Source of the DNA: Denitrovibrio acetiphilus DSM 12809
GTDB taxonomy: Bacteria > Chrysiogenota > Deferribacteres > Deferribacterales > Geovibrionaceae
Reading direction: 5' to 3'
DNA length: 64,000 nt
NCBI RefSeq assembly: GCF_000025725.1
Contig: NC_013943.1
Coordinates: forward strand, 1,736,001 to 1,800,000
In this document: piece by piece, positions 5,769 to 34,791 of the stretch
Position numbering within the stretch: position 1 is the first letter of the stretch
Layout of the letters: each line of letters begins with the position of its first letter
The notes under the pieces: generated by a model
Told to the model about the DNA's origin: nothing
Databases searched by the model: none
The model's input: the letters and a program-made list of their open reading frames with translations, nothing else
Position numbers and translations under genes: made by a program

Positions 5769-5785
5769 TGATATTATATAAATAC

Positions 5786-23043: not shown

Positions 23044-24234
23044 TTACATGCCAATTTTACAAGGCTGTGTATCACAGTTTACACCTGCGTCGAGAAAGTA
23101 ATATCTATCGATATCAGCAGGTTGACAATCATCAGCAAGGAAGAAGTAAACTTCTCCGGCTCTGCCGCCTGATGCACAATGAAACACAACTCTGCCTTCC
23201 TGAGGCATTTTTGAAATGAAAGCGTCACAGCCTTCTGAAACTTCTTTTGAAGAAACCTGAATGCTTCCGGGGATTTTTCCCGCAGCGACTTCATTGTCGT
23301 TACGAACGTCCACGATAGTTACATCGGCAGGACGTGTGGCAGGATCAAGAAGCTTTTCTACGAAGAAAGAAGTAATGAGTATCCCAGGCTCTTCGACAGG
23401 GAAACCGCTTGCAGAATCAACAGCAACAGGCTTTTTAGCAACAGGAGCGTCACCGCCAGGAGCCATAGGCTGCCCCGCAGCTTTCCACTCAGGAGCCCCG
23501 CCAGCATATACAAGTATATTTGTGTATCCCATTTCAAGCATTTTTTCAGCTACGATATGAGATTTCTCACACTTGTATCCGCCACAGAAAGGAACTGACA
23601 AGGTATTTTTATCAGCAGGCAGATTGCCTTTAAATTCATCAAATTTTGTATCAGGAACAACAATAGAACCAGCTATTGTAGACTTCTTGAATTTTCTTTC
23701 AGGACGGGCATCTATGAATGTTGCACCTTTTGCGTGAAGCTTTTTAGCTCCTTCAAGTGAAACCTCATTGTATGTGCCGTTTTTGTCCCAGTCAGGCTGA
23801 CCGTCAAGATAAATCTTAACATTTGTATAGCCTTTTTCTTTAAGTTTTTCAGCAACGATAAGTGATTTTTCGCACTTTACACCGCCGCAAAAAGTCACAA
23901 CATAGTCTTCAGGACTGACTTCTTTAGCAAAAGCAGGAAAGAATTCATCGAACTTTGTGTCAGGGATAAGTTTTGAAGTCGGGATGTGGGCTCCGTCGTA
24001 CTTTCTTTCAGGACGGGCATCAACGAGTGTGCCTCTGGATTTGTCCCAAACACCGTTTCCGATTATCATTTTAATTTCATCAATTTTCACAAGCTCAAAG
24101 TCGGCAGCTTTAGCCTGATCAGCAACACTTGCTTTTGCCTCAGCAACAGGCTTTTTAGCAGCCTGTCCGCAACCAAGCACAATAAGTGCAACCAACAGTG
24201 CAATAACAGTAAGCATTCTGCTCATTAAACGCAT
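23044..24234 (-). CDS. Lipoprotein with three rhodanese domains
   Basis: A 396-aa predicted periplasmic lipoprotein (lipobox VLGC, Cys22). Three rhodanese domains each begin with a VDAR/VDVR-type strand and carry a candidate persulfide-forming Cys: Cys116 (FCGGVKCEKS), Cys217 (FCGGYKCEKS) and Cys353 (HCASGGRAGE). Domains 1 and 2 are close duplicates, each with a second Cys five residues on; domain 3 differs. A periplasmic sulfur-transfer role beside a Psr/Phs-like enzyme recalls the Sud polysulfide carrier of Wolinella, which is inference. The ATG at 24234 has GGAGG 6 nt upstream. Confidence 0.9.
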   Translation of the reverse strand: MRLMSRMLTVIALLVALIVLGCGQAAKKPVAEAKASVADQAKAADFELVKIDEIKMIIGNGVWDKSRGTLVDARPERKYDGAHIPTSKLIPDTKFDEFFPAFAKEVSPEDYVVTFCGGVKCEKSLIVAEKLKEKGYTNVKIYLDGQPDWDKNGTYNEVSLEGAKKLHAKGATFIDARPERKFKKSTIAGSIVVPDTKFDEFKGNLPADKNTLSVPFCGGYKCEKSHIVAEKMLEMGYTNILVYAGGAPEWKAAGQPMAPGGDAPVAKKPVAVDSASGFPVEEPGILITSFFVEKLLDPATRPADVTIVDVRNDNEVAAGKIPGSIQVSSKEVSEGCDAFISKMPQEGRVVFHCASGGRAGEVYFFLADDCQPADIDRYYFLDAGVNCDTQPCKIGM

Positions 24235-24455
24235 ATACAACCTCCAACGTTTTTAATGATTCGCTCTACTTTTACTCAAAACAATGTTTTAATTAGTTTA
24301 TATTAATATTAGAATAATAATATATTCAACTATTCATATCTTAATATAAACCTATATAATTGTTTACTTAACAGTTTCTTAGCTCATAGAACATAAGAAG
24401 TGTTATTTTCAACAACAGTTTGATTATACATTATATCTTAGGATTCGCAATGTTT

Positions 24456-24467
24456 ATTGTATACAAT
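24456..24467. promoter_or_regulatory. Palindromic operator-like site ATTGTATACAAT
   Basis: Perfect 12-bp palindrome upstream of the rhodanese lipoprotein. A possible -10 (TATAAT, minus strand, 24430-24435) would place the site over the -35 region. The same core occurs at 28724, 32190 and 34360. Confidence 0.6.
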
Positions 24468-24483
24468 TTATCAAATTTTCAAC

Positions 24484-24510
24484 AAAAAAAAGGCAGCCCG
24501 AAGACTGCCT
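24484..24510 (-). terminator. Terminator after the NrfD-like gene
   Basis: AGGCAG and CTGCCT stem with an 8-nt loop; on the minus strand a run of seven or more T follows. It separates the Psr-like operon from the rhodanese gene. Confidence 0.8.
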
Positions 24511-24534
24511 TATGCTATTGATATAATTAGTTAA

Positions 24535-25746
24535 TTAATCATGTTCAGGAGTTTTAAGATCCATAAACTTCTCAGCTGCGAAATAGAGCACTAATGCGGT
24601 GCCTATCCCGAGAAGAAATATGCCCCACTCAGCGGCTGACGGTGAATATACAGCAAGCCCGCTTGCATCAGCGTGAACTCTCGCTCCAGGGTTTGCAGCT
24701 CTCATAACAGGAAGCTGTCCCGCAACTATAAAGTTTACTCTGGTAAAGAACAGACCGACCATAAAAACAAGTCCGGCAAGCCCGTACACTTTTGTGTTCC
24801 CTTTCGCTAAGAGAAGCAATGCAAGAGGAACTATTATGGCAAGTCCGATCTCGCCAATCCAGAAATGTGGAGCAAGTGGACCGCTTATCAAAGCCATAAC
24901 AGACTGGTATGCTCCGTCAGGTGAGTTGAAGAGAGATGTAAGTATCTTCCAGAGATACAGAAAAATCATCATCCCTATTCCTCCGCTCATAAGCTTCGAG
25001 AGTGATTTCATTGCACCATTAAGCTCAGAAGGGATATTAAACTTATAGACAATATTGTGTACAAGCATAAGAAGTCCCGCACCTGCAGTAATACCTGATA
25101 TCACAAGGAAAGTGGAGAAGTATATACCGTGAAACCAAGGTCTTGCGTTAAGCGAACCAAATACAAATCCAAGGTTTGATGTTGCAAGTGTACCTACCAC
25201 AAGAGCGAGGAACCCGAGGATGCCTGCCATTTTGTGATCCTTTGCAGTCGGGTGAGCCTTAAAAACAATAACCAGCTCAAGAGCAAGGATAACAAGCTCG
25301 ATAGAGTAGAAAACACCCATCCAGAGAATCGGAGCTGCGAGGTTAGGAGAAAGCATCATATAAATGATCATTCTGATCGGATGCCCTATCTCCATAAGGA
25401 TCTGAGTGAAACCGGCAAGGAGTACAAATGTCGCAAGGACAACTATTCTTCTGCTGATTTTGTTAAATGACTCAAATCCGAAAGCGTGCCCCAGACCGCC
25501 GATGAAGGCGAGACCTGTGGATGTGATAACAAAATATGCATATGTACCGATAAGGAGTCCCCAAGGAACCTCTCTGTTAACGGCATACATTTCTTCGTGA
25601 CCGTTGATGAAAACTATCAGAGCAGTCACAGCGCCTATTCCGGCAAGTACCAGACCGAGAAGTATCAGCGGCATTACGGGAATATCTTTATTATAAGTGA
25701 TCAGCCCAGCAAGTGGACTTTTCTTTGCTTCTGCGTGTGATGACAT
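24535..25746 (-). CDS. NrfD/PsrC-family membrane quinone-interacting subunit
   Basis: A 403-aa polytopic inner-membrane protein with about ten hydrophobic helices and no heme-ligand pattern, as in NrfD/PsrC proteins that exchange electrons and protons with the quinone pool. It would anchor the FeS and Mo subunits encoded just upstream. It is 14 nt past the FeS gene stop, in the order catalytic, FeS, membrane, with a terminator after it. The length is close to long PsrC-type members (about 400 aa). Confidence 0.92.
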   Translation of the reverse strand: MSSHAEAKKSPLAGLITYNKDIPVMPLILLGLVLAGIGAVTALIVFINGHEEMYAVNREVPWGLLIGTYAYFVITSTGLAFIGGLGHAFGFESFNKISRRIVVLATFVLLAGFTQILMEIGHPIRMIIYMMLSPNLAAPILWMGVFYSIELVILALELVIVFKAHPTAKDHKMAGILGFLALVVGTLATSNLGFVFGSLNARPWFHGIYFSTFLVISGITAGAGLLMLVHNIVYKFNIPSELNGAMKSLSKLMSGGIGMMIFLYLWKILTSLFNSPDGAYQSVMALISGPLAPHFWIGEIGLAIIVPLALLLLAKGNTKVYGLAGLVFMVGLFFTRVNFIVAGQLPVMRAANPGARVHADASGLAVYSPSAAEWGIFLLGIGTALVLYFAAEKFMDLKTPEHD

Positions 25747-25760
25747 TATTAATCCTCCGC

Positions 25761-26315
25761 CTACTTTATGTAAAAGAGTCTTGGCTTTGTATTTCTGTCT
25801 GCCTTAAGCTGGTAAGTAGCATTTTTGCCTTTCAGCTTAGCTGCTTCTGACTCAGGATCATTCAGGTCGCCGAAAACACGTACCTTTGTAGGACATGTTT
25901 CAACACAAGCCGGTTCTCTGCCTTCTGCCAGCCTGTGGTAGCAGAAAGTACATTTTTCTATTGCGTGGTGTTTCTCAGACACAAATCTTGCATCATACGG
26001 GCAAGCTGTCATACATGCTTTGCAGATGATACATCTTTTATAGTCGATGAGTACAACACCCTCATCTGTTCTGTATGTCGCAGATGTAGGACATACTGTG
26101 GCACATGGTGTGTTTTCGCAGTGCTGACACTGTGAAGGTTCAAACTCCATGCTGAGGTTAGGATATGTCCCCTGAACAGGCAGTTCAGCAACCCATATTC
26201 TATAAAGCTCATCACCAACTTCAACGCCGTTTTCGAACTTACAGGCAACAGTGCATGCCTTACAGTTCAGGCATTTTTTAGCATCTAATACAATTCCGAG
26301 TTTCTTTTCGCTCAT
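25761..26315 (-). CDS. Four-cluster ferredoxin-type electron transfer subunit (PsrB/DmsB-like)
   Basis: A 184-aa protein with four cysteine groups binding up to four [4Fe-4S] clusters: CLNCKACTVAC, CQHCENTPCATVCP, CIICKACMTACP and CTFCYHRLAEG with CVETCP. There is no own signal peptide, so it is expected to be exported with the Tat-bearing catalytic subunit. It lies 11 nt after the catalytic gene and transfers electrons between the NrfD-like subunit and the Mo site. Confidence 0.95.
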   Translation of the reverse strand: MSEKKLGIVLDAKKCLNCKACTVACKFENGVEVGDELYRIWVAELPVQGTYPNLSMEFEPSQCQHCENTPCATVCPTSATYRTDEGVVLIDYKRCIICKACMTACPYDARFVSEKHHAIEKCTFCYHRLAEGREPACVETCPTKVRVFGDLNDPESEAAKLKGKNATYQLKADRNTKPRLFYIK

Positions 26316-26326
26316 TGTTGCCTCCG

Positions 26327-28660
26327 TTACGCCTTAGTAATTGTTACAAATGTTTCGTGCAGCGCAGCATTACCAGAGATAGGTTCGATATAATCTTCGA
26401 GAATCTCTGCCTGTGAGGCACCTTTATTGTAAACGTGGCTAAGCTGCGGTGAGAGACGACCGAAACCGTGAGCATAAAATACGCAGTCAGGGCGAATCTT
26501 CTCTGTTACGTATGCCGCAAGCTCCTGCTCTCCAACACTGCTTGTCACCTTCACCCTGTCGCCGTCAACAATGTTAAGCTTTTTCGCCTCAGCACTGTTT
26601 AACCACAAAGTGTTCTCTTTCTGAATCTCCCAGAGGAAGCCGTTGTTCTGAGTTCCTGTATGGGTGTTCCACGCGTGACGTCCGAGGATGAAACGATATT
26701 TACCCGGCTCAGGCTGGCGGGGTGCTCTATATGTAGGGAGCCCGTCAAGACCTTCCGCAACATATTTAACGTTAAGCAGCTCAATTTTACCTGTTCTGGT
26801 TTTGAACCTGTACCCCGGTTTCCTTGTATTTCCGTATGTTGGTTTATCGGAAAGATAGAAAACGCCCTCTTTAAGCATCTGCTCATATGCCCCCGGATGT
26901 CCGGAGAGCTGGTATTTAATATAGTCCTGAATAGGTTTATTAAGAATGCCGTCAACAATTTCATCTTTGAAATCATCTACTTCAAATTCGTCAGCATCAT
27001 CCCAGAGTTCAGGAATTTTAACCATTTCATTAACCACACCCTGAGCTATGTCGAACATTGATTTTGTTTTGAAAACAGGTTCAACAACAGCCTGACGGAA
27101 TGTTGCAATAGGCCAGATACCGGAAAGTGAGTGAACCACATCCCAGCGTTCAAGGTATGTTGACTCAGGGATAACAAGGTCAGCATAATAGGCAGCTTCT
27201 GTCATCTGAATGTCTATAGCACAGATGAATTCCATCTTGTCTATCATCTGCATTGTTTTCTTTCTGTTAGGTACAGCTTCTATAAAGTTTTGCTTATAGA
27301 TAACCATGGCATCGACCTTATAAGGATCTTCCCTGAGAACTGCATCTCTGAGACGAGTCCATGAACCGTCTTTTTCAGAAAGGTAAGTACATGAATCTTT
27401 CGGAAGACCGGAGCTGGATCTTTCATCATCGGGAAGATTATTTGCAAAAGCCCCGTATGAAGCAACATCTATCCTGCTTTCTGCCTGCTCGTAATAAGGG
27501 AAAAGTACATCATACTTTTTTATAGGAACAGGAGACTTAGGACATATACCGCCCTCAGTGTCCCAACATCCGCATATGGCTGAAAGTATTGCGCAGGCAC
27601 GGCGGAAGTAAACATCGTTCACATACCAGCTTGTTCTGCGTCCGGGATATGCTATAGAGCGAGGTGCATATTTGGCAAACTCTCTGGCTGTCCAGTAGAT
27701 TTCACTCGCAGGGATTTCACATTCATTTTCAGCCCACTCAGGAGTGTATTGTTTAACATGAGCTTTAAGCTCTTCAAAACCATGAGTGTATTCGTTAACA
27801 AAAGCTTCATCGTGAAGATTTTCGCTTATGATAACATTAATCAGGGCAAGAACAAAAGCGAGGTCTGTCCCCGGCTTTACAGGATACCACTTATCAGCTT
27901 TCGCTGCGGTAGCTGTGTATCTCGGGTCAAGATAAACTATCTGCTGCCCTTTCGGTCTGTTTTTCTGAATATCTATTGAATCAGGTGTGACTATAGCCTC
28001 TGCCCTGTTTGAACCAAACATGATAGCAAACATAGCATTGTGCATATCTGCATCAGGGAAAACCCCGAAAACAGAAGACCACCCCTGAATAACAGAAGAA
28101 AGGCAAAGGGTTGGGTGCCTTACGGTGTTGAGTGAACCGTATGACTGTACAAGATAATGGAACATGTGCTCCTGAAAGCCCTCAGAAGATGCAAACAGGA
28201 CAGAAGATCTGTTCTGATTTTTCACTTTATGCTCAGCAAGTTTTTCTGCAAGCATTTTGAAAGCTTCTTCATAGGATATCTTCTTCCACTTCCCCTCACC
28301 CCTTTCACCGACTCTGACAAGAGGAGTTGTAAGTCTTTCATGATTGTACGGCTCTTCAGCGCCAGCGTTACCACGAGCACAAAGCATTGCACGGCTTTTG
28401 AAAAACTTTGGGTTTGGATTGAGTTTCTTTATTTTCCCGTCTACAACGTGAGCAAAGAAACCACATTTGTTAACACACATCTCACAGCTAGATGCGATGT
28501 GTTTTTCGCCTTTTTCACCAGTAGGTGCTGGTGCATCATGACCACTGCTGGCCACTGCTTTAAAGGTAGTTAGGTTAGCAGCAAATACCCCAGCAGCTAC
28601 TGCACCACCTGATGCCGCAAGAAAACGCCTACGGCTCAGACTCATACCGGAAAGCTTCAT
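26327..28660 (-). CDS. Psr/Phs/Arr-type molybdopterin oxidoreductase catalytic subunit
   Basis: A 777-aa catalytic subunit. Tat signal SRRRFLAAS (9-17). The [4Fe-4S] site is Cys59, Cys62, Cys66 and Cys94 (C-x2-C-x3-C spacing). Cys186 in RHPTLCLSS sits where polysulfide, thiosulfate and arsenate reductases have the Mo-ligating Cys. With the FeS and NrfD genes this makes a periplasmic respiratory complex. The neighbouring rhodanese, FccAB and lack of ars genes favour a sulfur substrate (polysulfide, thiosulfate or tetrathionate), but the sequence alone does not decide. AGGAGG precedes the ATG. An inverted repeat overlaps its -10. Confidence 0.92.
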   Translation of the reverse strand: MKLSGMSLSRRRFLAASGGAVAAGVFAANLTTFKAVASSGHDAPAPTGEKGEKHIASSCEMCVNKCGFFAHVVDGKIKKLNPNPKFFKSRAMLCARGNAGAEEPYNHERLTTPLVRVGERGEGKWKKISYEEAFKMLAEKLAEHKVKNQNRSSVLFASSEGFQEHMFHYLVQSYGSLNTVRHPTLCLSSVIQGWSSVFGVFPDADMHNAMFAIMFGSNRAEAIVTPDSIDIQKNRPKGQQIVYLDPRYTATAAKADKWYPVKPGTDLAFVLALINVIISENLHDEAFVNEYTHGFEELKAHVKQYTPEWAENECEIPASEIYWTAREFAKYAPRSIAYPGRRTSWYVNDVYFRRACAILSAICGCWDTEGGICPKSPVPIKKYDVLFPYYEQAESRIDVASYGAFANNLPDDERSSSGLPKDSCTYLSEKDGSWTRLRDAVLREDPYKVDAMVIYKQNFIEAVPNRKKTMQMIDKMEFICAIDIQMTEAAYYADLVIPESTYLERWDVVHSLSGIWPIATFRQAVVEPVFKTKSMFDIAQGVVNEMVKIPELWDDADEFEVDDFKDEIVDGILNKPIQDYIKYQLSGHPGAYEQMLKEGVFYLSDKPTYGNTRKPGYRFKTRTGKIELLNVKYVAEGLDGLPTYRAPRQPEPGKYRFILGRHAWNTHTGTQNNGFLWEIQKENTLWLNSAEAKKLNIVDGDRVKVTSSVGEQELAAYVTEKIRPDCVFYAHGFGRLSPQLSHVYNKGASQAEILEDYIEPISGNAALHETFVTITKA

Positions 28661-28723
28661 ATAGGGACCTCCTAGTATTTCAATAACTATCAGTTATTTA
28701 TAAACTTCACGCCAGTTCATGTT

Positions 28724-28744
28724 TTGTATACGGTATACAATATA
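28724..28744 (-). promoter_or_regulatory. Operator overlapping the -10 of the Psr-like operon
   Basis: TTGTATAC-G-GTATACAA (28724-28740) is a perfect 8-1-8 inverted repeat. A minus-strand promoter TTGCAA (28762-28767), 17 nt, TATATT (28739-28744) runs into it, so a bound protein would block the start site. This layout suggests repression. Confidence 0.6.
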
Positions 28745-28767
28745 CATAGCATAAGATCGTATTGCAA

Positions 28768-29234
28768 GTGCTTTCTGTACAGTTTTATCAAATTTTATAA
28801 CCGTGTTTCCTGAACTAAACGAAACGCATAAAGCACTATTACATTTAACAAAAATACATGGTTTATAACTGAATTATATTACTATTAATTCAGTAGGAAT
28901 ACCCATGAGCGAAACGAGTTTGATTTATTAAATAATCAACTCTAACATTACTTTACAAAAACACCTCTTATGTATAAAAATAAGAATGAAAAAATATAAA
29001 AATATACAGAAATTACGATTTAACTGTATGCAAACAATCTTATCAGCAACAATTGCGATATATAGTACAGTAAACGACTATAATTAGATTTTATATATAT
29101 TCATAAAAATTTTGACTAAATATGACAACAGAGCACAAAAAACACATGCTGAACATTTAAACTTTTCAGTGTTATCATATCTATCTTGCTTATATAGATA
29201 AGGTCGAGATCATGCAAAGCTCTTAAAAAAACGT
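28768..29234. other. AT-rich intergenic region, nothing recognised
   Basis: About 470 bases between the Psr-like promoter and the porin terminator. All frames are short; no RNA gene or repeat copy is seen. Confidence 0.4.
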
Positions 29235-29270
29235 AAAAAGGCAGCCCGCACACGCCTTCAGCGGGCTGCC
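29235..29270 (-). terminator. Terminator after the porin gene
   Basis: GGCAGCCCGC and GCGGGCTGCC form a perfect 10-bp stem with an 11-nt loop, followed by TTTTT on the minus strand. Confidence 0.85.
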
Positions 29271-29296
29271 CTATATTTCAGCTTATCACGCAGATA

Positions 29297-31234
29297 TTAG
29301 TATCTGTATGTGAAAGAAGCGTAAACTTTATCAACTTTATCTGTAACAGCCATCATAGTATCAAAGGCTGTCGCATCTTCGATCTTTTTAGGAGCGCCAA
29401 GGTAAGAACCTGAGCCTGTGTATTCGTAATCAAAGTGCTGGTATCCGATAGTAGCAAAAAGTCTGTCGCCAACGATCGGCTGATGATAGTAGACATCGTA
29501 AACCTTACCGCGAACAGCAAGTTTAGACCCTACAAGGTCGTCCTCAGCAGCAGTCATAGATACCCAATATTTACTACCCTGATTGTATTCAAAGCCGAAT
29601 TTACCACCTGTGAGAGGTATCTCAGGAGTAGCAACACCAACCCAAACACTTGTACCGGTTTTACTATCTTTAGAACCAAGCATCCTGTCCATATCCATAA
29701 ACTGATACATAGCAGACCTTGATCTGCCGTCAGGATGAGATTTGGACATAGCAAAAGAAGTAAACCATGAAAATCCGAATGTTTCACCCTGAGCAAGAAG
29801 TGAGTGCCATTCCATGTCACCAACTTCTGCGGTGGCTTCAAGCCTAGAAGAAGAGCCAGAATAGTTAGGAGTTATCTGGTATTCATCATATGAACCATCC
29901 GCACTGAGATCAGTATTCTGACCAACTACGGTAAACGGCATTACTGCTGCACCTGTGAAACCATCTGTCACACCAAAACCTCTTGCAAAGTTGTACCACA
30001 GCTTATACTGGTCATCATCGTAAAACTTAACAATAACACCAAGAAACTCAACGTCATCTACTTCAGGTGAAGCGATCAGCCCGTTATTAGCCGCCATAGC
30101 ATTGCTTGAACCCCAGCCTGACTCAAAGCCTTTACCGTAACAAATCTTAATGAATGATCCTGGCAGAAATTCTAAAAGGTTTTCAAAATCGAACTGAAGT
30201 GAAGCACCGTCAAACTGCCACTGAATTATGTGAGAGAGAGGTGAACCGCCGAGAGTTGCGTATTCTGAATTTTCTTTACCGGGACCGAAAGTTGAAGGCC
30301 TTCTACCAAATGAGAAGTGCCAGCCAAGATCACCGATTTCATTTTTATAAACAAAATAAGCTCTCTCAACATGCAGTTTGTCATCAGTAGGAACAGAACC
30401 TGCATTACCGTCAAGGTACATAGACTTATATGATCCGTCCATCCACTGAACGTCACTTGCGTCAGACCATACTTTGTTCATAACAAGACGACCAGCAAAG
30501 GATAGCTTGTCATTGACACGGCTGTTAAGTCTGATTCTGAGCCTGTTAGTAAAAAGTGAACTGTTGTTATGGTCATATTTGCGCGGCTTCATATTAGAAA
30601 AAAGAGTTTTCATCATCTGAAGCTGAGTTGCTGAAAGAGTGGTAGATGAGAGCATATCCTGCATATATACCATCATTGCAGCTTCCATCTGAGATGCGCC
30701 ATAATTGGTCATCATGTTACCAATAGCTGTCTGAACCTCTGCTGTTCCCATCCATGAAGTTATTTCAGGATTAGTCATCATAGCACCTGTCACATCAGGA
30801 TTAGCAGCTAAATCTGTTATAAACTGATAAAGCTCCTGACCATAGACAGAGTTTGCAGCAAACGGGTCAAATGCGTCATTAAAACCATTATTGTTTGTAT
30901 CCCATGACTCTGTAGCGTTTGCAGGATTACCATCAGCATCAGTGTTGATCATGTAACCTCTGAGCCACAGCCCCATCATGTCGTTACCCATCGCAGGAAG
31001 AGCCCTGACGTCTTTGTAGCTTATGCTGTCAACTCTCGTACGGAGCTCAACACCAATGTCTACTTTGTCTTTAATACGGTGTACTTCGTTTTTGTCCACA
31101 CGCCTGGACATTTTAAGTACTTCATCCTGAAGCTCTGTAATCTGGGATTTCAGCTCTTCAAGAGTGACATCCGCTGCAAATGCAAAAGATGCAGGGACAA
31201 GGACCAGAAGAATCAAAGATATAATTTTCTTCAT
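29297..31234 (-). CDS. Outer-membrane beta-barrel protein (DUF3373-like porin)
   Basis: A 645-aa exported protein. Signal peptide of about 20 residues ending AFA, then a coiled-coil-like stretch (TLEELKSQITELQDEVLKM) and LRTRVDSISYKD. The body has alternating hydrophobic strands, and the last residues are SFTYRY, a C-terminal aromatic typical of BAM-assembled barrels. The pattern recalls DUF3373 proteins of anaerobic respirers. A role in passing sulfur compounds across the outer membrane is only inferred from its neighbours. It has its own terminator. Confidence 0.8.
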   Translation of the reverse strand: MKKIISLILLVLVPASFAFAADVTLEELKSQITELQDEVLKMSRRVDKNEVHRIKDKVDIGVELRTRVDSISYKDVRALPAMGNDMMGLWLRGYMINTDADGNPANATESWDTNNNGFNDAFDPFAANSVYGQELYQFITDLAANPDVTGAMMTNPEITSWMGTAEVQTAIGNMMTNYGASQMEAAMMVYMQDMLSSTTLSATQLQMMKTLFSNMKPRKYDHNNSSLFTNRLRIRLNSRVNDKLSFAGRLVMNKVWSDASDVQWMDGSYKSMYLDGNAGSVPTDDKLHVERAYFVYKNEIGDLGWHFSFGRRPSTFGPGKENSEYATLGGSPLSHIIQWQFDGASLQFDFENLLEFLPGSFIKICYGKGFESGWGSSNAMAANNGLIASPEVDDVEFLGVIVKFYDDDQYKLWYNFARGFGVTDGFTGAAVMPFTVVGQNTDLSADGSYDEYQITPNYSGSSSRLEATAEVGDMEWHSLLAQGETFGFSWFTSFAMSKSHPDGRSRSAMYQFMDMDRMLGSKDSKTGTSVWVGVATPEIPLTGGKFGFEYNQGSKYWVSMTAAEDDLVGSKLAVRGKVYDVYYHQPIVGDRLFATIGYQHFDYEYTGSGSYLGAPKKIEDATAFDTMMAVTDKVDKVYASFTYRY

Positions 31235-31405
31235 ACAATACTCCCTAGTATTTATATGTGTCAGTCACCGCCTGTATGAACGGCAAGAGACAATAGAGGA
31301 CCGTTGGGATTTGTCCTCTTCAATCCTTATTAACCATGCAAAAAATCCCCCGCAGAACTTTCAGCAAGGAGTGTCGCAGCAAGCCACTAAACTCTTTATT
31401 AAGAA

Positions 31406-32098
31406 TCACTTACTTTCTGTAAAAACATCCTCCATAATCGGGTCAATATCATTTAAAAAGCCCGAAAGTATTACTGAAAAATCACGATAGAACGGCATGT
31501 CATCCCTCTTTGCCACCGCCGCGGCAAAGTGATCTGCGAGTACCGGTCCGTAATTCTCTAACACATTGTATAAATTATGCAGAGAACCATACCAGCTTTC
31601 CAGATTTTCCGGTTCTGACAGTTTTTTGAACAGCATAGAGATAAACTCGAGAACAATATAAACATGATCCTCAAGCTCGGTCACGTCTTCGCCTAAGACA
31701 AAACCTGCCCGTGCCATCCATTCCCGTATTTTAAATGTGCTTTCGCCATAAAGCATCTTATTATCTTCGGTATAAAAAGAGATATAAGGGACTATTTTAT
31801 TACCGTCCATATCCTGCTCGAACAGTTTGATATAATCGCTCTCCATCTCTGTGTGATCATAAAGTGTTATTTTTGAATCTGAATAGTCTGAAATGAAATC
31901 TGCAAACGCTTCCCAGTTATCGTTAAGTGTGTCATAAACATCTTCTTCCGGATACCTGAAAACAAGAGAAAGAAACATAGAAACATTTGAAACAGCCCCA
32001 AATGTTTCGGCGTCCAGCTCAGCATCAGAAAGCATAGATTTAGCTTTCTCATAATTGCCTGCTAATACGTACATTTTAAAATCATTATATATAAACAT
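31406..32098 (-). CDS. TorD/DmsD-family chaperone for molybdoenzyme maturation
   Basis: A 230-aa, all-helical cytoplasmic protein with the TorD-family pattern: an N-terminal SMFLSLVFRYP segment, a central YIKLFEQDMDGN...VPYISFY block (the Y/E-x-x-LF and P-Y-x-S-x-Y signature), and ESTFKIREWMARAG. Such chaperones hold the Tat signal of a Mo enzyme until cofactor is inserted. The likely client is the Psr-like catalytic subunit, since both genes carry the same operator-like site. It is a monocistron facing the porin. Confidence 0.85.
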   Translation of the reverse strand: MFIYNDFKMYVLAGNYEKAKSMLSDAELDAETFGAVSNVSMFLSLVFRYPEEDVYDTLNDNWEAFADFISDYSDSKITLYDHTEMESDYIKLFEQDMDGNKIVPYISFYTEDNKMLYGESTFKIREWMARAGFVLGEDVTELEDHVYIVLEFISMLFKKLSEPENLESWYGSLHNLYNVLENYGPVLADHFAAAVAKRDDMPFYRDFSVILSGFLNDIDPIMEDVFTESK

Positions 32099-32136
32099 TA
32101 CAATAAACCTTTCCGCACTAATCTCTTATTTATTAG

Positions 32137-32199
32137 ACTATATTTTTTTTTTAAAGATTTGTAAAGGGATTTTACAAAAGAAATGTATATTGTATACAC
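32137..32199 (-). promoter_or_regulatory. Promoter and TTGTATACAC site of the TorD-like gene
   Basis: Minus-strand TTTACA, 17 nt, TATAGT (32137-32142). A near-palindrome ATTGTATACACT lies at 32189-32200, about 64 bp upstream of the expected start, a position that would suit an activator. Confidence 0.5.
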
Positions 32200-32252
32200 T
32201 TTAAAAATATGGGGAGACAGCGCATCCCCCCATTTACTCTTATATATAAGCA

Positions 32253-33554
32253 TTATAAAAGCATGTCACTCCAAATGCTTGTGGCCCAGTCCCGAGCATG
32301 TTTCCCGAAAAGAGCATTTCTTGTGGGGGAAACACCGCCGGAAACAGACATAATTCTGTCAATCTTTTCATCATACCTATACACTGCCGACACAAAAATC
32401 CCTTCAGTCTCATTTATCAGTGAATAGCATGTATTAACGTATGTCGGCTCAACAGGATCAAGCCCTTTCAGCTTACGAACCATCTGAACCGCGGCAACTT
32501 TAGCCATTGAGTTTGCAACATATCCCGATTTCGGCACGCCGCCAACAGCACCGTTATGGGTTGCATCACCTATAACATGTACACTGTCATATTTATATGA
32601 CTCAAATGTCTTAGGGTACGCCCTAACCCAGTCATCGCCCTCATTGCTCATAAGCCCAAGATTAAAAGCAGTCTGATTTGCTTTCATTGCAGGTATGATA
32701 TTCGCAACCTCAGGAACAATATCCCCCTGCTCTGAAACAACTCTACCAGTGGACGCATCAACGGACTTAATGAAATTGTCAGGCACATACTCTATAATGC
32801 CCTGATAGTAATCTTCCCATGCCGCCTTGAACAAAGGTCCTTTTGATACAATACCATCGTTGGAATCGAAAACAATGATCTTTGACCCCGGCTTATATTT
32901 CTTTATAAAATTTGCAATGAGCGAAATTCTTTCGTAAGGTCCGGGCGGACACCTGTATGGAGTGGGAGGTACGGACAAAAGAACAACTCCGCCAGGCTCC
33001 ATAGCTTTCAGTCTTTCGGCGAGAAGAACAGTTTCATGCCCTGCCTTCATAGCAGCAGGAAACATCTCAATGGCAGCAGGATTGTTCAATCCTTCAATTG
33101 TTTCATATTTATATGATATCCCCGGAGAAACAAGAAGCAGGTCGTACTCAAGGACACCCTTAGTAGTCATAAGCTTTTTATTTACTGCATCCAGATCTTT
33201 AGCCTCAGCATGGACAACTTTTACACCATAATTCTTAACAAGCCCGTCATAGCTCTTAGTAATATCCTTCATTGTGCGGAAACCGCCGATAACCCAGTTA
33301 CTGACCGGACAGGATATAAACTTTTCCTGACGCTCAACCATAACAACCTCGACAGAAGGATCCTCCAGCTTAATGTACTTTGCTGCTGTTGCTCCACCCC
33401 AGCCGCCTCCAAGTATAACTATTCTTTTACCTGACTTCGGCATAATAACACCGGAACCTTTGCTTACGCTGTCATTGTGGGAGCATCCGAAAATAGCCGT
33501 GCCTGCCGCTGCGGCTGTAGTGTATTTTACAAAATTACGTCGTGATATACTCAT
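32253..33554 (-). CDS. fccB: Flavocytochrome c sulfide dehydrogenase flavoprotein subunit
   Basis: A 433-aa FAD protein exported by Tat (SRRNFVKYT at about 4-12). The FAD motif GGGWGGATAAKYI follows at about 49. The two cysteines that form the redox disulfide are present in EKFISCPVSNWVIGG and TPYRCPPGPYERI, and the C-terminal FAD/cap signature VHVIGDATH is conserved. It would oxidise sulfide (or reduce polysulfide) in the periplasm and pass electrons to the cytochrome encoded 3 nt upstream. Confidence 0.93.
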   Translation of the reverse strand: MSISRRNFVKYTTAAAAGTAIFGCSHNDSVSKGSGVIMPKSGKRIVILGGGWGGATAAKYIKLEDPSVEVVMVERQEKFISCPVSNWVIGGFRTMKDITKSYDGLVKNYGVKVVHAEAKDLDAVNKKLMTTKGVLEYDLLLVSPGISYKYETIEGLNNPAAIEMFPAAMKAGHETVLLAERLKAMEPGGVVLLSVPPTPYRCPPGPYERISLIANFIKKYKPGSKIIVFDSNDGIVSKGPLFKAAWEDYYQGIIEYVPDNFIKSVDASTGRVVSEQGDIVPEVANIIPAMKANQTAFNLGLMSNEGDDWVRAYPKTFESYKYDSVHVIGDATHNGAVGGVPKSGYVANSMAKVAAVQMVRKLKGLDPVEPTYVNTCYSLINETEGIFVSAVYRYDEKIDRIMSVSGGVSPTRNALFGKHARDWATSIWSDMLL

Positions 33555-33557
33555 AAT

Positions 33558-34154
33558 CTACTCCCCCTGTCTTAAGCCTGACAGATAATTTGCCAGAGCA
33601 TTTATCTGCTCATCATCAAGGTCTGCAACCATGCCCATCTCTTCCGACTTAATAGCCCCTGAACGGTAGCGCTTAAGAACTTCTTTAAGATAACCGAGGT
33701 TTTGTCCGCCAATATGCGGATATTCGTCCAACCCCTCCCCTCTTGCTCCATGGCAGTCCATACAGCCGTTTTCTGCCGCAACCTGCCTGCCCATTTTACT
33801 TTTTGCAGAGTCAGTATTATTAGTAGAGTTAACCCACCCCTGAGAGGAATAATACAGAGCTATAGACTCAAGCTGTTCATCCGAATAACCTTTTGCAATA
33901 ATCGACATCTCAACACTCCCCTCACGCTCCCCTCCAGAGAACTCTTTCAACACTTTTGCCATATAGTCCGGATTTTGCCCGCCTATGGTTGCAATATATT
34001 TTCCCGGTGTATTGCCTGATGTTCCATGACAACCCGCGCAGGTTTTACCAAGCCGGGCTCCTTCTGAAACATTTGCTTCTGAAAATCCGGCAACTGGAAG
34101 GATCAGAACCATAGCTGTAATTACAAAATTGAAAAGCCATTTTGATTTTTTCAT
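33558..34154 (-). CDS. fccA: Diheme cytochrome c subunit of sulfide dehydrogenase
   Basis: A 198-aa c-type cytochrome with a signal peptide (ending near PVAGFSEA) and two c4-like domains, each with a heme motif: CAGCH (about 40) and CMDCH (about 131). Each is followed by a Met-containing stretch (KVLKEF, then MSIIAKG; and EEMGMV) able to give the distal ligand. The ATG at 34154 follows GGAGG at good spacing, preferred to the overlapping GTG at 34160. First gene of fccA-fccB. Confidence 0.9.
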   Translation of the reverse strand: MKKSKWLFNFVITAMVLILPVAGFSEANVSEGARLGKTCAGCHGTSGNTPGKYIATIGGQNPDYMAKVLKEFSGGEREGSVEMSIIAKGYSDEQLESIALYYSSQGWVNSTNNTDSAKSKMGRQVAAENGCMDCHGARGEGLDEYPHIGGQNLGYLKEVLKRYRSGAIKSEEMGMVADLDDEQINALANYLSGLRQGE

Positions 34155-34461
34155 ACGCACCTCCGTACTAGTTATTTACAAAAAAAATGCTGTGAACAAT
34201 TCTACCATATTAAAGAATTATTTCTTATAATACTTTTTTAATCTTATTTTACATCATTGTCAATACGGGCACAATATGAACTGAATATACCTAATAATCA
34301 AACATTACTATATGTGAACTATATCACTTTATTCAGCATATTATCAATATAAGCAGAAAATTGTATACAATGTACAAAAACCCCTTGAAATAATATTTCC
34401 CCAGTGTTATCTTACGAACAAACAAACACCAATTTATTTGGTTTTAGTAAGGAGAATTCAT
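34155..34461. promoter_or_regulatory. Divergent control region with ATTGTATACAAT operator
   Basis: About 300 bases between fccA and a small exported protein. The perfect palindrome ATTGTATACAAT lies at 34360-34371. A plus-strand promoter TTGAAA (34385-34390), 17 nt, TATCTT (34408-34413) follows, putting the operator centre near -55. No clear fccA promoter stands out. Confidence 0.55.
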
Positions 34462-34791
34462 ATGTTCAGAAAAGCTATGCTTGTTGTTCTTGCTGTTGTT
34501 TTCATGGCTACTAACGTTTTCGCTATGGATTTCAACGCTGGTGACGGTAGAAAAGGTAAAAGACTTTGGAAAAGATATCACACAAAATGCGCTGACGGTA
34601 CAAAACTCAGTGCTAAAGCCGGTGCTGCTACACGCACACAGGCTCAGTGGAAAGACGCTTTCCAGAACCCTGCAAAACTTCCTTGCGGCGGTCAGTGGGA
34701 AGGAATCAAAACTACTGAAGATATGCAGGACGCTTTCAGATATCTCTACGATCACGCAGCTGACTCTGACCAGCCAGAAACTTGTGGCTAA
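34462..34791 (+). CDS. Small exported cytochrome-c-like protein without heme motif
   Basis: A 109-aa protein with a signal peptide cut near FAMDF and a mature part of about 85 residues. The pattern (GRKGKRLWKRYHTKCADG, then TRTQAQWKDAF and a helical DAFRYLYDHAADSDQPE) resembles small monoheme cytochromes c, but there is no CxxCH; Cys remain only as KCADG, PCGG and TCG. It may be a heme-less relative with a metal or thiol role. AAGGAG precedes the ATG at 34462. Codon use is strongly biased and a strong promoter and terminator flank it, which suggests high expression. Confidence 0.72.
   Translation: MFRKAMLVVLAVVFMATNVFAMDFNAGDGRKGKRLWKRYHTKCADGTKLSAKAGAATRTQAQWKDAFQNPAKLPCGGQWEGIKTTEDMQDAFRYLYDHAADSDQPETCG

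Follow-up and report, generated by a model that had tools for sequence, protein, structure and literature searches.

Escherichia coli FadR and the other members of the FadR subfamily of GntR regulators pair a winged helix-turn-helix with a GT...AC palindrome, and FadR is both a repressor and an activator. We analyzed a 64-kb stretch of the Denitrovibrio acetiphilus genome (the window; G000:C1:1736001-1800000, on a chromosome of 3,222,077 bp) in which four palindromes of this kind accompany a polysulfide/thiosulfate-reductase-like gene cluster. Judged from sequence, these palindromes are very probably operators of a GntR-family protein, GntR1, whose predicted regulon comprises the oxidative tricarboxylic acid (TCA) cycle, complex I, ATP synthase, and acetate uptake, together with certain terminal-reductase modules. 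GntR1 differs from FadR in carrying an FCD domain in place of the acyl-CoA domain; the GT-AC spacing in its predicted operators is 2 nt, their GTATAC cores recur every 7 bp, and the predicted target set has the TCA cycle and complex I at its core.

PmiR of Pseudomonas aeruginosa, known for its connection with 2-methylisocitrate and the methylcitrate cycle, is likewise a GntR/FCD protein and has the same fold as the model of a Geobacter-type GntR1 orthologue. A PDB sequence search placed PmiR (7xp0/7xp1) first (E 6.7e-24), and the predicted fold of a Geobacter-type orthologue (predicted local distance difference test score of 89.3) aligned with PmiR at Z 23.0 and a root-mean-square deviation of 3.0 over 199 residues, matching FCD regulators; a fold search informs on fold only, and further families may exist beyond the matches listed. 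The targets set the two apart, those predicted for GntR1 being TCA cycle, complex I, and ATP synthase genes, with no prp genes among the sites seen or the labelled targets (no search aimed at prp genes was made). HgtR of Geobacter sulfurreducens, a possible parallel, differs in that hydrogen induces it. CitO of Enterococcus faecalis is an FCD-type GntR protein whose citrate-dependent binding upstream of the cit promoters induces them but which, in the relevant part of that report, serves citrate-utilization genes only (PMC4746285). SdhR, a GntR-family regulator linked to sdh by name, belongs to the HutC subfamily and has a different palindrome, TCTTATGTCTTATATAAGACATAAGA (PMC4494728, in the portion concerned).

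The predicted operator motif in the window and beyond

The original prediction proposed that a shared palindrome marks a sulfur-respiration regulon under one FadR-type GntR regulator encoded elsewhere. All four sites are real and lie where it placed them: ATTGTATACAAT at 24456 and 34360, ATTGTATACACT at 32189, and TTGTATAC-G-GTATACAA at 28724. As predicted GntR1-type operators, none assigned a strand, they are:

24450..24473, rhodanese operator, in the gap that separates the rhodanese lipoprotein gene from psrC; exact decamer at 24457-24466
28724..28747, psrABC operator, with GTATAC cores 7 bp apart
32183..32206, torD operator, serving torD and then the DUF3373 porin-like gene
34354..34377, exported-protein operator, in the divergent region between cytC-fcsD and the gene for a small exported protein

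The psr site stands as to location; its form, given earlier as an 8-1-8 palindrome, is a different register of the shared motif, GTATACgGTATACaaTATAC, with the core spacing noted above. A one-sided match reported at 5785 exists but amounts to background (8.8 and 9.0 bits in two scorings). The rhodanese start lies 221 bp downstream of the centre of its operator. The centre of the psrABC operator is 75 bp upstream of psrA, and the site overlaps a putative -10 (TTGCAA-N17-TATATT, - strand). The torD operator, centred 96 bp upstream of torD, lies upstream of a putative -35/-10 pair (TTTACA-N17-TATAGT), and the exported-protein operator, centred 97 bp from its gene, lies upstream of a putative TTGAAA-N17-TATCTT. 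These last two distances, taken from the start codons, replace the 55-64 bp first proposed, unless transcription starts were meant.

Alignment of sites from the family yielded the extended pattern TGTATA-TTGTATACAA-T, with GTATAC-like cores every 7 bp. The exact decamer, TTGTATACAA, has 8 copies in the genome versus 11 for the reversed-letter control, and allowing one mismatch gives 155 versus 252 for controls; a one-mismatch scan of the window found 6 matches against 2.8 expected, and the 11 other family genomes together hold 80 exact sites versus 52 controls. Because its copy number is not enriched, the decamer alone is no proof. This lack of genome-wide enrichment would favor chance palindromes in AT-rich spacers, an explanation that the held-out model, the simulations, and the cross-genome conservation described below refute, and to which we attach practically no probability. 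Six of the eight exact decamers are intergenic, two of them in the window and the others before sdhC, in the fumC/fumA gap, before rrf2, and upstream (29 bp) of a small DsrE-like gene; the relevant passage of the genome report gives the D. acetiphilus genome as 93.3% coding (PMC3035293).

Scores from a first model, R1 (35 sites), are circular for the window sites because the window and its genus belong to the training set; a 24-bp model, R2, avoids this by drawing its 28 sites exclusively from other genera. In a whole-genome scan, R2 recovered the psr site (E 0.0026), the site at 34360 (E 0.0032), the torD site (E 0.034), and the rhodanese site (E 0.14), these E-values being rough. A held-out matrix from the same 28 sites scored the window sites at 27.9 (psr), 26.8 (34360), 22.2 (rhodanese), and 22.0 bits (torD), and the next-best place in the 64 kb reached 11.5 bits. 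Across 200 simulated windows (first-order Markov) the maximum was 18.5 bits, and 0/200 contained a site matching the fourth-best window site. The places found by R2 in this genome also include sdhC, fum, nuoA, acnB, an NADPH/NuoF-like flavoprotein gene, atpF, atpI, icd, gntR1, rrf2, gltA, and an acetate-symporter-type gene; two others, 2002920 and 994478, are coding, not promoters. Outside its training set, R1 found (E<0.08) sites before nuoA, acnB, icd, atpB (inside atpI), atpF, and the flavoprotein gene, together with one orphan beside a transposase. The genome-wide scan, offered earlier as a check, thus shows places that are not random once the flanks are scored.

The decamer also occurs within an rRNA-methylase-like coding sequence in many family genomes (L005, L029, L031, L033, L096, L099, L110), where coincidence in the coding sequence imitates a conserved site. 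A motif conserved within a gene is for this reason no evidence, and the atpI site has the same weakness. A crude count based on open reading frames puts 39/80 places in intergenic DNA, with doubly fetched loci counted twice, five G007 places unlisted, and spurious antisense frames masking genuine spacers at sdhC, fumC, and rhodanese. At G000:C1:662413-662432, a good operator-like site adjoins an IS256-type transposase and has no evident target; it is perhaps an interrupted promoter.

GntR1 as the candidate regulator

An exact site upstream of a GntR gene in genus g3 led to the D. acetiphilus orthologue gntR1 (G000:C1:1877362-1878018), which lies 77 kb beyond the window, as expected for a regulator not encoded there, and has a tandem paralogue, gntR2, directly downstream. 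GntR1 consists of an N-terminal GntR winged helix (PF00392, E 2.3e-19) and a C-terminal FCD domain (PF07729, E 2.1e-22), in keeping with the FadR-type class foreseen for it. In NCBIfam no named family scored above cut-off for GntR1 or GntR2, and no PmiR model was among the matches listed. The two paralogues share an identical recognition helix, GISRTPIREALR, and four residues, which we take to be the FCD metal-type positions, are invariant in 16/16 aligned GntR1/GntR2 proteins (N137, H141, H185, H207). The operator TTGT-AT-ACAA has the TKGT/ACMA boxes and the GT-AC spacing of 2-3 nt that characterize sites of the FadR subfamily, for which the published consensus, in the section concerned, is TKGT/ACMA with a 2-nt spacing (PMC4494728, section 10).

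GntR1 is present in 12/12 family genomes, and 29/59 genomes, D. acetiphilus included, have a match at E <=1e-12. GntR2 directly follows it in families f1, f2, f3, f7, and f8. A regulator gene with its own site had been suggested as a test, and a GTATAC palindrome, often CTGTATACAG, indeed lies <=195 bp upstream in 23/23 gntR1 genes (L136-L158). Single-copy homologues from families f10 and f5 (L159-L162) have an upstream GTATAC palindrome too, with one-mismatch forms in L160 and L161.

The motif follows the regulator across genomes, which supports the proposal of one shared regulator. R1 found 4-22 matches in each of the 29/29 GntR1-positive genomes and 0-3 in 17 GntR1-negative genomes (17/30 negatives were scanned, leaving out G032, G042-G044, and G050-G058). 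The D. acetiphilus genome has 22 matches (E up to 0.15) and G001-G005 have 21, 20, 20, 18, and 16; G006-G011 follow with 13, 14, 13, 13, 16, and 14 (E up to 0.1). Counts are 16, 19, 14, 18, and 15 in G012, G013, G015, G017, and G018; 18, 19, 4, 18, 16, 15, 10, 18, and 15 in G019, G020, G022, G024-G027, G030, and G031; and 4, 9, and 4 in G047-G049. Among the negatives, G014, G016, G021, G029, G033-G035, G039-G041, and G045 have no match, G028, G036, G037, G038, and G046 have one each, and G023 has three.

The same distribution bears on a second candidate, an Rrf2-family protein (NsrR/RirA-like) encoded beside the cbb3 oxidase. Its gene has an exact site 47 bp upstream, conserved in the genus, and the protein has an Rrf2 Pfam match and a C-X6-C-X5-C motif. 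Against it, G003 (13 exact sites) and G015 (14 model matches) are without a close Rrf2 orthologue, and the half-site TTGTATAC was found in none of the examined Rrf2 loci outside genera g1 and g4. As G003 is the genome richest in exact sites, Rrf2 was dropped as the regulator; we consider it very unlikely in that role, and rrf2 is better read as a target. The rrf2-ccoN promoter (G000:C1:1599679-1600170; L002, L046; L053) contains, besides the exact site, a 9-5-9 palindrome, TTGTATACC-N5-GGTATACAA, which is present in G009 too, with a half in other g1 and g4 genomes.

The best relatives of GntR1 in the named genome collection share 42-49% identity and are mostly of Geobacter, Geomonas, and Desulfuromonas type; the loci covered number 31/80. 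A model-like site precedes the gene in each of the first 20 (20/20; L345-L364). The next 11 (L365-L375) include a site in L368 and a weak one in L367, and in the remaining nine no site near the gene passed the cut-off applied (L365 comes without upstream DNA, and L370 is a Desulfuromonadales record). Many operators of L142-L149 and L345-L362 display runs of two to three GTATAC cores repeated at 7-bp intervals.

Targets, promoter geometry, and the proposed regulon

Within the family, sites precede sdhC, nuoA, acnB, gntR1, and icd in 12/12 genomes (one icd from a separate locus survey). They also mark the flavoprotein gene in 11/12, psrA in 10/12 (true orthologues), atpI-atpB in 9/12, atpF and gltA in 8/12 each, torD in 7/12, exported protein/cytC in 7/12 plus G002, rhodanese in 3/12 plus G002 and G007, and fumC/fumA in 3/12; the lower counts are lower bounds, as retrieval was confined to matches under the E cut-off and covered nearly all of these. 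Acetate-symporter genes have sites in many family genomes. Lineage-specific targets, some named by eye, are mdh, an Mnh-type antiporter gene, cydA, a NiFe hydrogenase, a pyruvate-carboxylase-like gene, and feoA. Genomes of other families have sites before gltA, sdhC, torD, icd, acnB, and atpF, and the psrA orthologue of G018 (66% identity) has a site at 47 bp. Sites beside the window's genes are thus mostly kept beside orthologues in relatives, with losses at psrA, torD, and rhodanese in some genomes: the psrC-rhodanese gap site is present in G001, G002, G005, and G007 and absent from G003, G004, and G009, and no strong torD site was found in G005, G007, or G009. The G005 row labelled psrA is a different enzyme (41% identical).

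With sdhC, nuoA, acnB, icd, and gntR1 sites this universal, the sulfur-respiration regulon first envisaged is too narrow. A dedicated regulon of that kind, with the remaining sites incidental, would account for four sites within one 10-kb sulfur cluster that recur in relatives; the sites of widest conservation stand before TCA cycle, complex I, and gntR1 genes instead, and we regard it as extremely unlikely. The original interpretation is supported in part: we read the sulfur cluster as a single branch of a broader regulon whose core is formed by the TCA cycle, complex I, ATP synthase, and acetate uptake.

Upstream sequences were aligned on the operator, and promoter hexamers and geometry classes were read by eye. 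The operator lies just upstream of the -35 at sdhC (12/12), gltA (8/8), the exported protein (7/7), and torD, and over the -10 or start at nuoA (12/12), acnB (12/12), icd, atpF, the flavoprotein, gntR1, and most psrA genes. This conserved geometry, a property of promoter sequence and not of activity, suggests dual action, in which operators would repress where they cover the -10 or start (psrA, nuoA, acnB, icd, atpF, gntR1) and activate where a conserved -35 follows directly downstream (sdhC, gltA, exported protein, torD). The exact decamer TTGTATACAA occurs in 29/40 upstream-class sites versus 3/78 of the overlapping class, a comparison affected by non-independence among the genomes and by the earlier collection of exact sites. 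This skew, and the occurrence of the paralogues in tandem in the order, could mean that two regulators divide the sites, GntR1 preferring CTGTATACAG (over the promoter) and GntR2 TTGTATACAA (upstream of the -35), or the reverse. The aligned recognition helices of the two are identical, and we find such a division rather unlikely; it is a variant of the GntR1 regulon and compatible with it.

We thus favor a regulon in which one GntR-type regulator probably tunes acetate burning, respiration, and ATP synthesis jointly in one group of anaerobic bacteria. GntR1 and/or GntR2 would bind the GTATAC operators, and the FCD domain may sense a small carboxylate of acetate/TCA metabolism; the polysulfide/thiosulfate-reductase-like cluster of the window would be one terminal-reductase module under GntR1. 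Several points weigh against this reading. Operator binding by GntR1 and its effects on expression are predictions, and GntR1 and GntR2 are indistinguishable as the binder. The match counts come from related genomes, with palindromes counted on both strands, and since families f4, f6, and f9 account for the GntR1-negative genomes, the split reflects few independent losses; moreover, little separates the strongest negative (G023, three) from the weakest positives, which have four matches each (G047, G049, and the 64%-complete G022). Some sites are coding (atpI and the conserved rRNA-methylase codon run). The psrA of G001 (L305:11456-13774), a member of the same genus, is 53% identical to that of the window and without an operator; it is possibly a replaced gene. 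Finally, any role of the psr cluster is putative, since nitrate is the only acceptor that D. acetiphilus is known, from the pertinent part of its genome report, to respire (PMC3035293).

FadR-type regulons are a known kind; this target set and the two-phylum reach of the regulator-operator pair were not found in the papers searched, and no description of the regulon was among the papers listed from the open-licence literature. The main text of three Geobacter genome papers, in the parts covered, has neither a GTATAC string nor a mention of GntR (PMC2700814, PMC2996986, PMC3543383), and the heptanucleotide repeats in the corresponding part of PMC2700814 are other sequences. As a tentative extension, to which we give slightly less than an even chance, the system may be an ancient master switch of acetate oxidation in Deferribacterota and Geobacter/Desulfuromonas-type bacteria, with the reach into the latter seen for the auto-site only: one FadR-type regulator with a GTATAC operator phased every 7 bp, reading a TCA-cycle carboxylate, activating or repressing according to position, and accepting plug-in terminal reductases. 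If so, TCA flux, complex I, and ATP synthase would be set in one step, and lineage-specific terminal reductases, here polysulfide reductase, would be plugged in. Little was found in the literature on respiration control in Deferribacterota, and Geobacter-type acetate oxidizers are relevant to metal cycling and bioelectrochemistry. A candidate regulator, an operator, and ranked targets make the matching of acetate oxidation to electron acceptors testable with few proteins and promoters.

Genes of the sulfur cluster

The genes beside the four operators are:

23044..24240, - strand, three-domain rhodanese lipoprotein (target); Pfam Rhodanese, three stretches
24535..25746, - strand, psrC, NrfD-type membrane subunit (target operon); Pfam NrfD
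25761..26315, - strand, psrB, 4Fe-4S subunit (target operon); Pfam Fer4_11
26327..28660, - strand, psrA/phsA-like molybdopterin subunit (target); Pfam Molybdopterin, best NCBIfam match PhsA below cut-off
29297..31234, - strand, DUF3373 protein, porin-like, downstream of torD; Pfam DUF3373
31406..32098, - strand, TorD-like chaperone (target); Pfam Nitrate_red_del, NCBIfam TorD below cut-off
32253..33554, - strand, flavocytochrome c sulfide dehydrogenase (FCSD) flavoprotein; Pfam FCSD_central and FCSD-flav_bind
33558..34160, - strand, cytochrome c (cytC), divergent target; Pfam Cytochrom_C
34462..34791, + strand, 109-residue exported protein (target); no Pfam or NCBIfam match

The gene at 32253-33554, originally labelled fccA, encodes the FCSD flavoprotein and no fumarate reductase, as its two Pfam domains indicate, so the cluster brings together a sulfide-oxidizing-type enzyme and a reductase. 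Genes and sites alternate in the order exported protein, site, cytC-fcsD, site, torD-DUF3373, site, psrABC, site, rhodanese, an architecture retained wholly or partly in L305-L311, L313, and L314. The sections drawn on here describe D. acetiphilus as using acetate or pyruvate via the citric acid cycle, with nitrate respiration alone known (PMC3035293), and report that nitrate supply represses NrfD/polysulfide-reductase genes in Deferrivibrio metallireducens (PMC11896075). On these facts, we read the cluster as a module for alternative acceptors that the acetate-oxidation regulon would include. In the relatives examined, a homologue of the 109-residue exported protein stands beside a site in the sulfur cluster.

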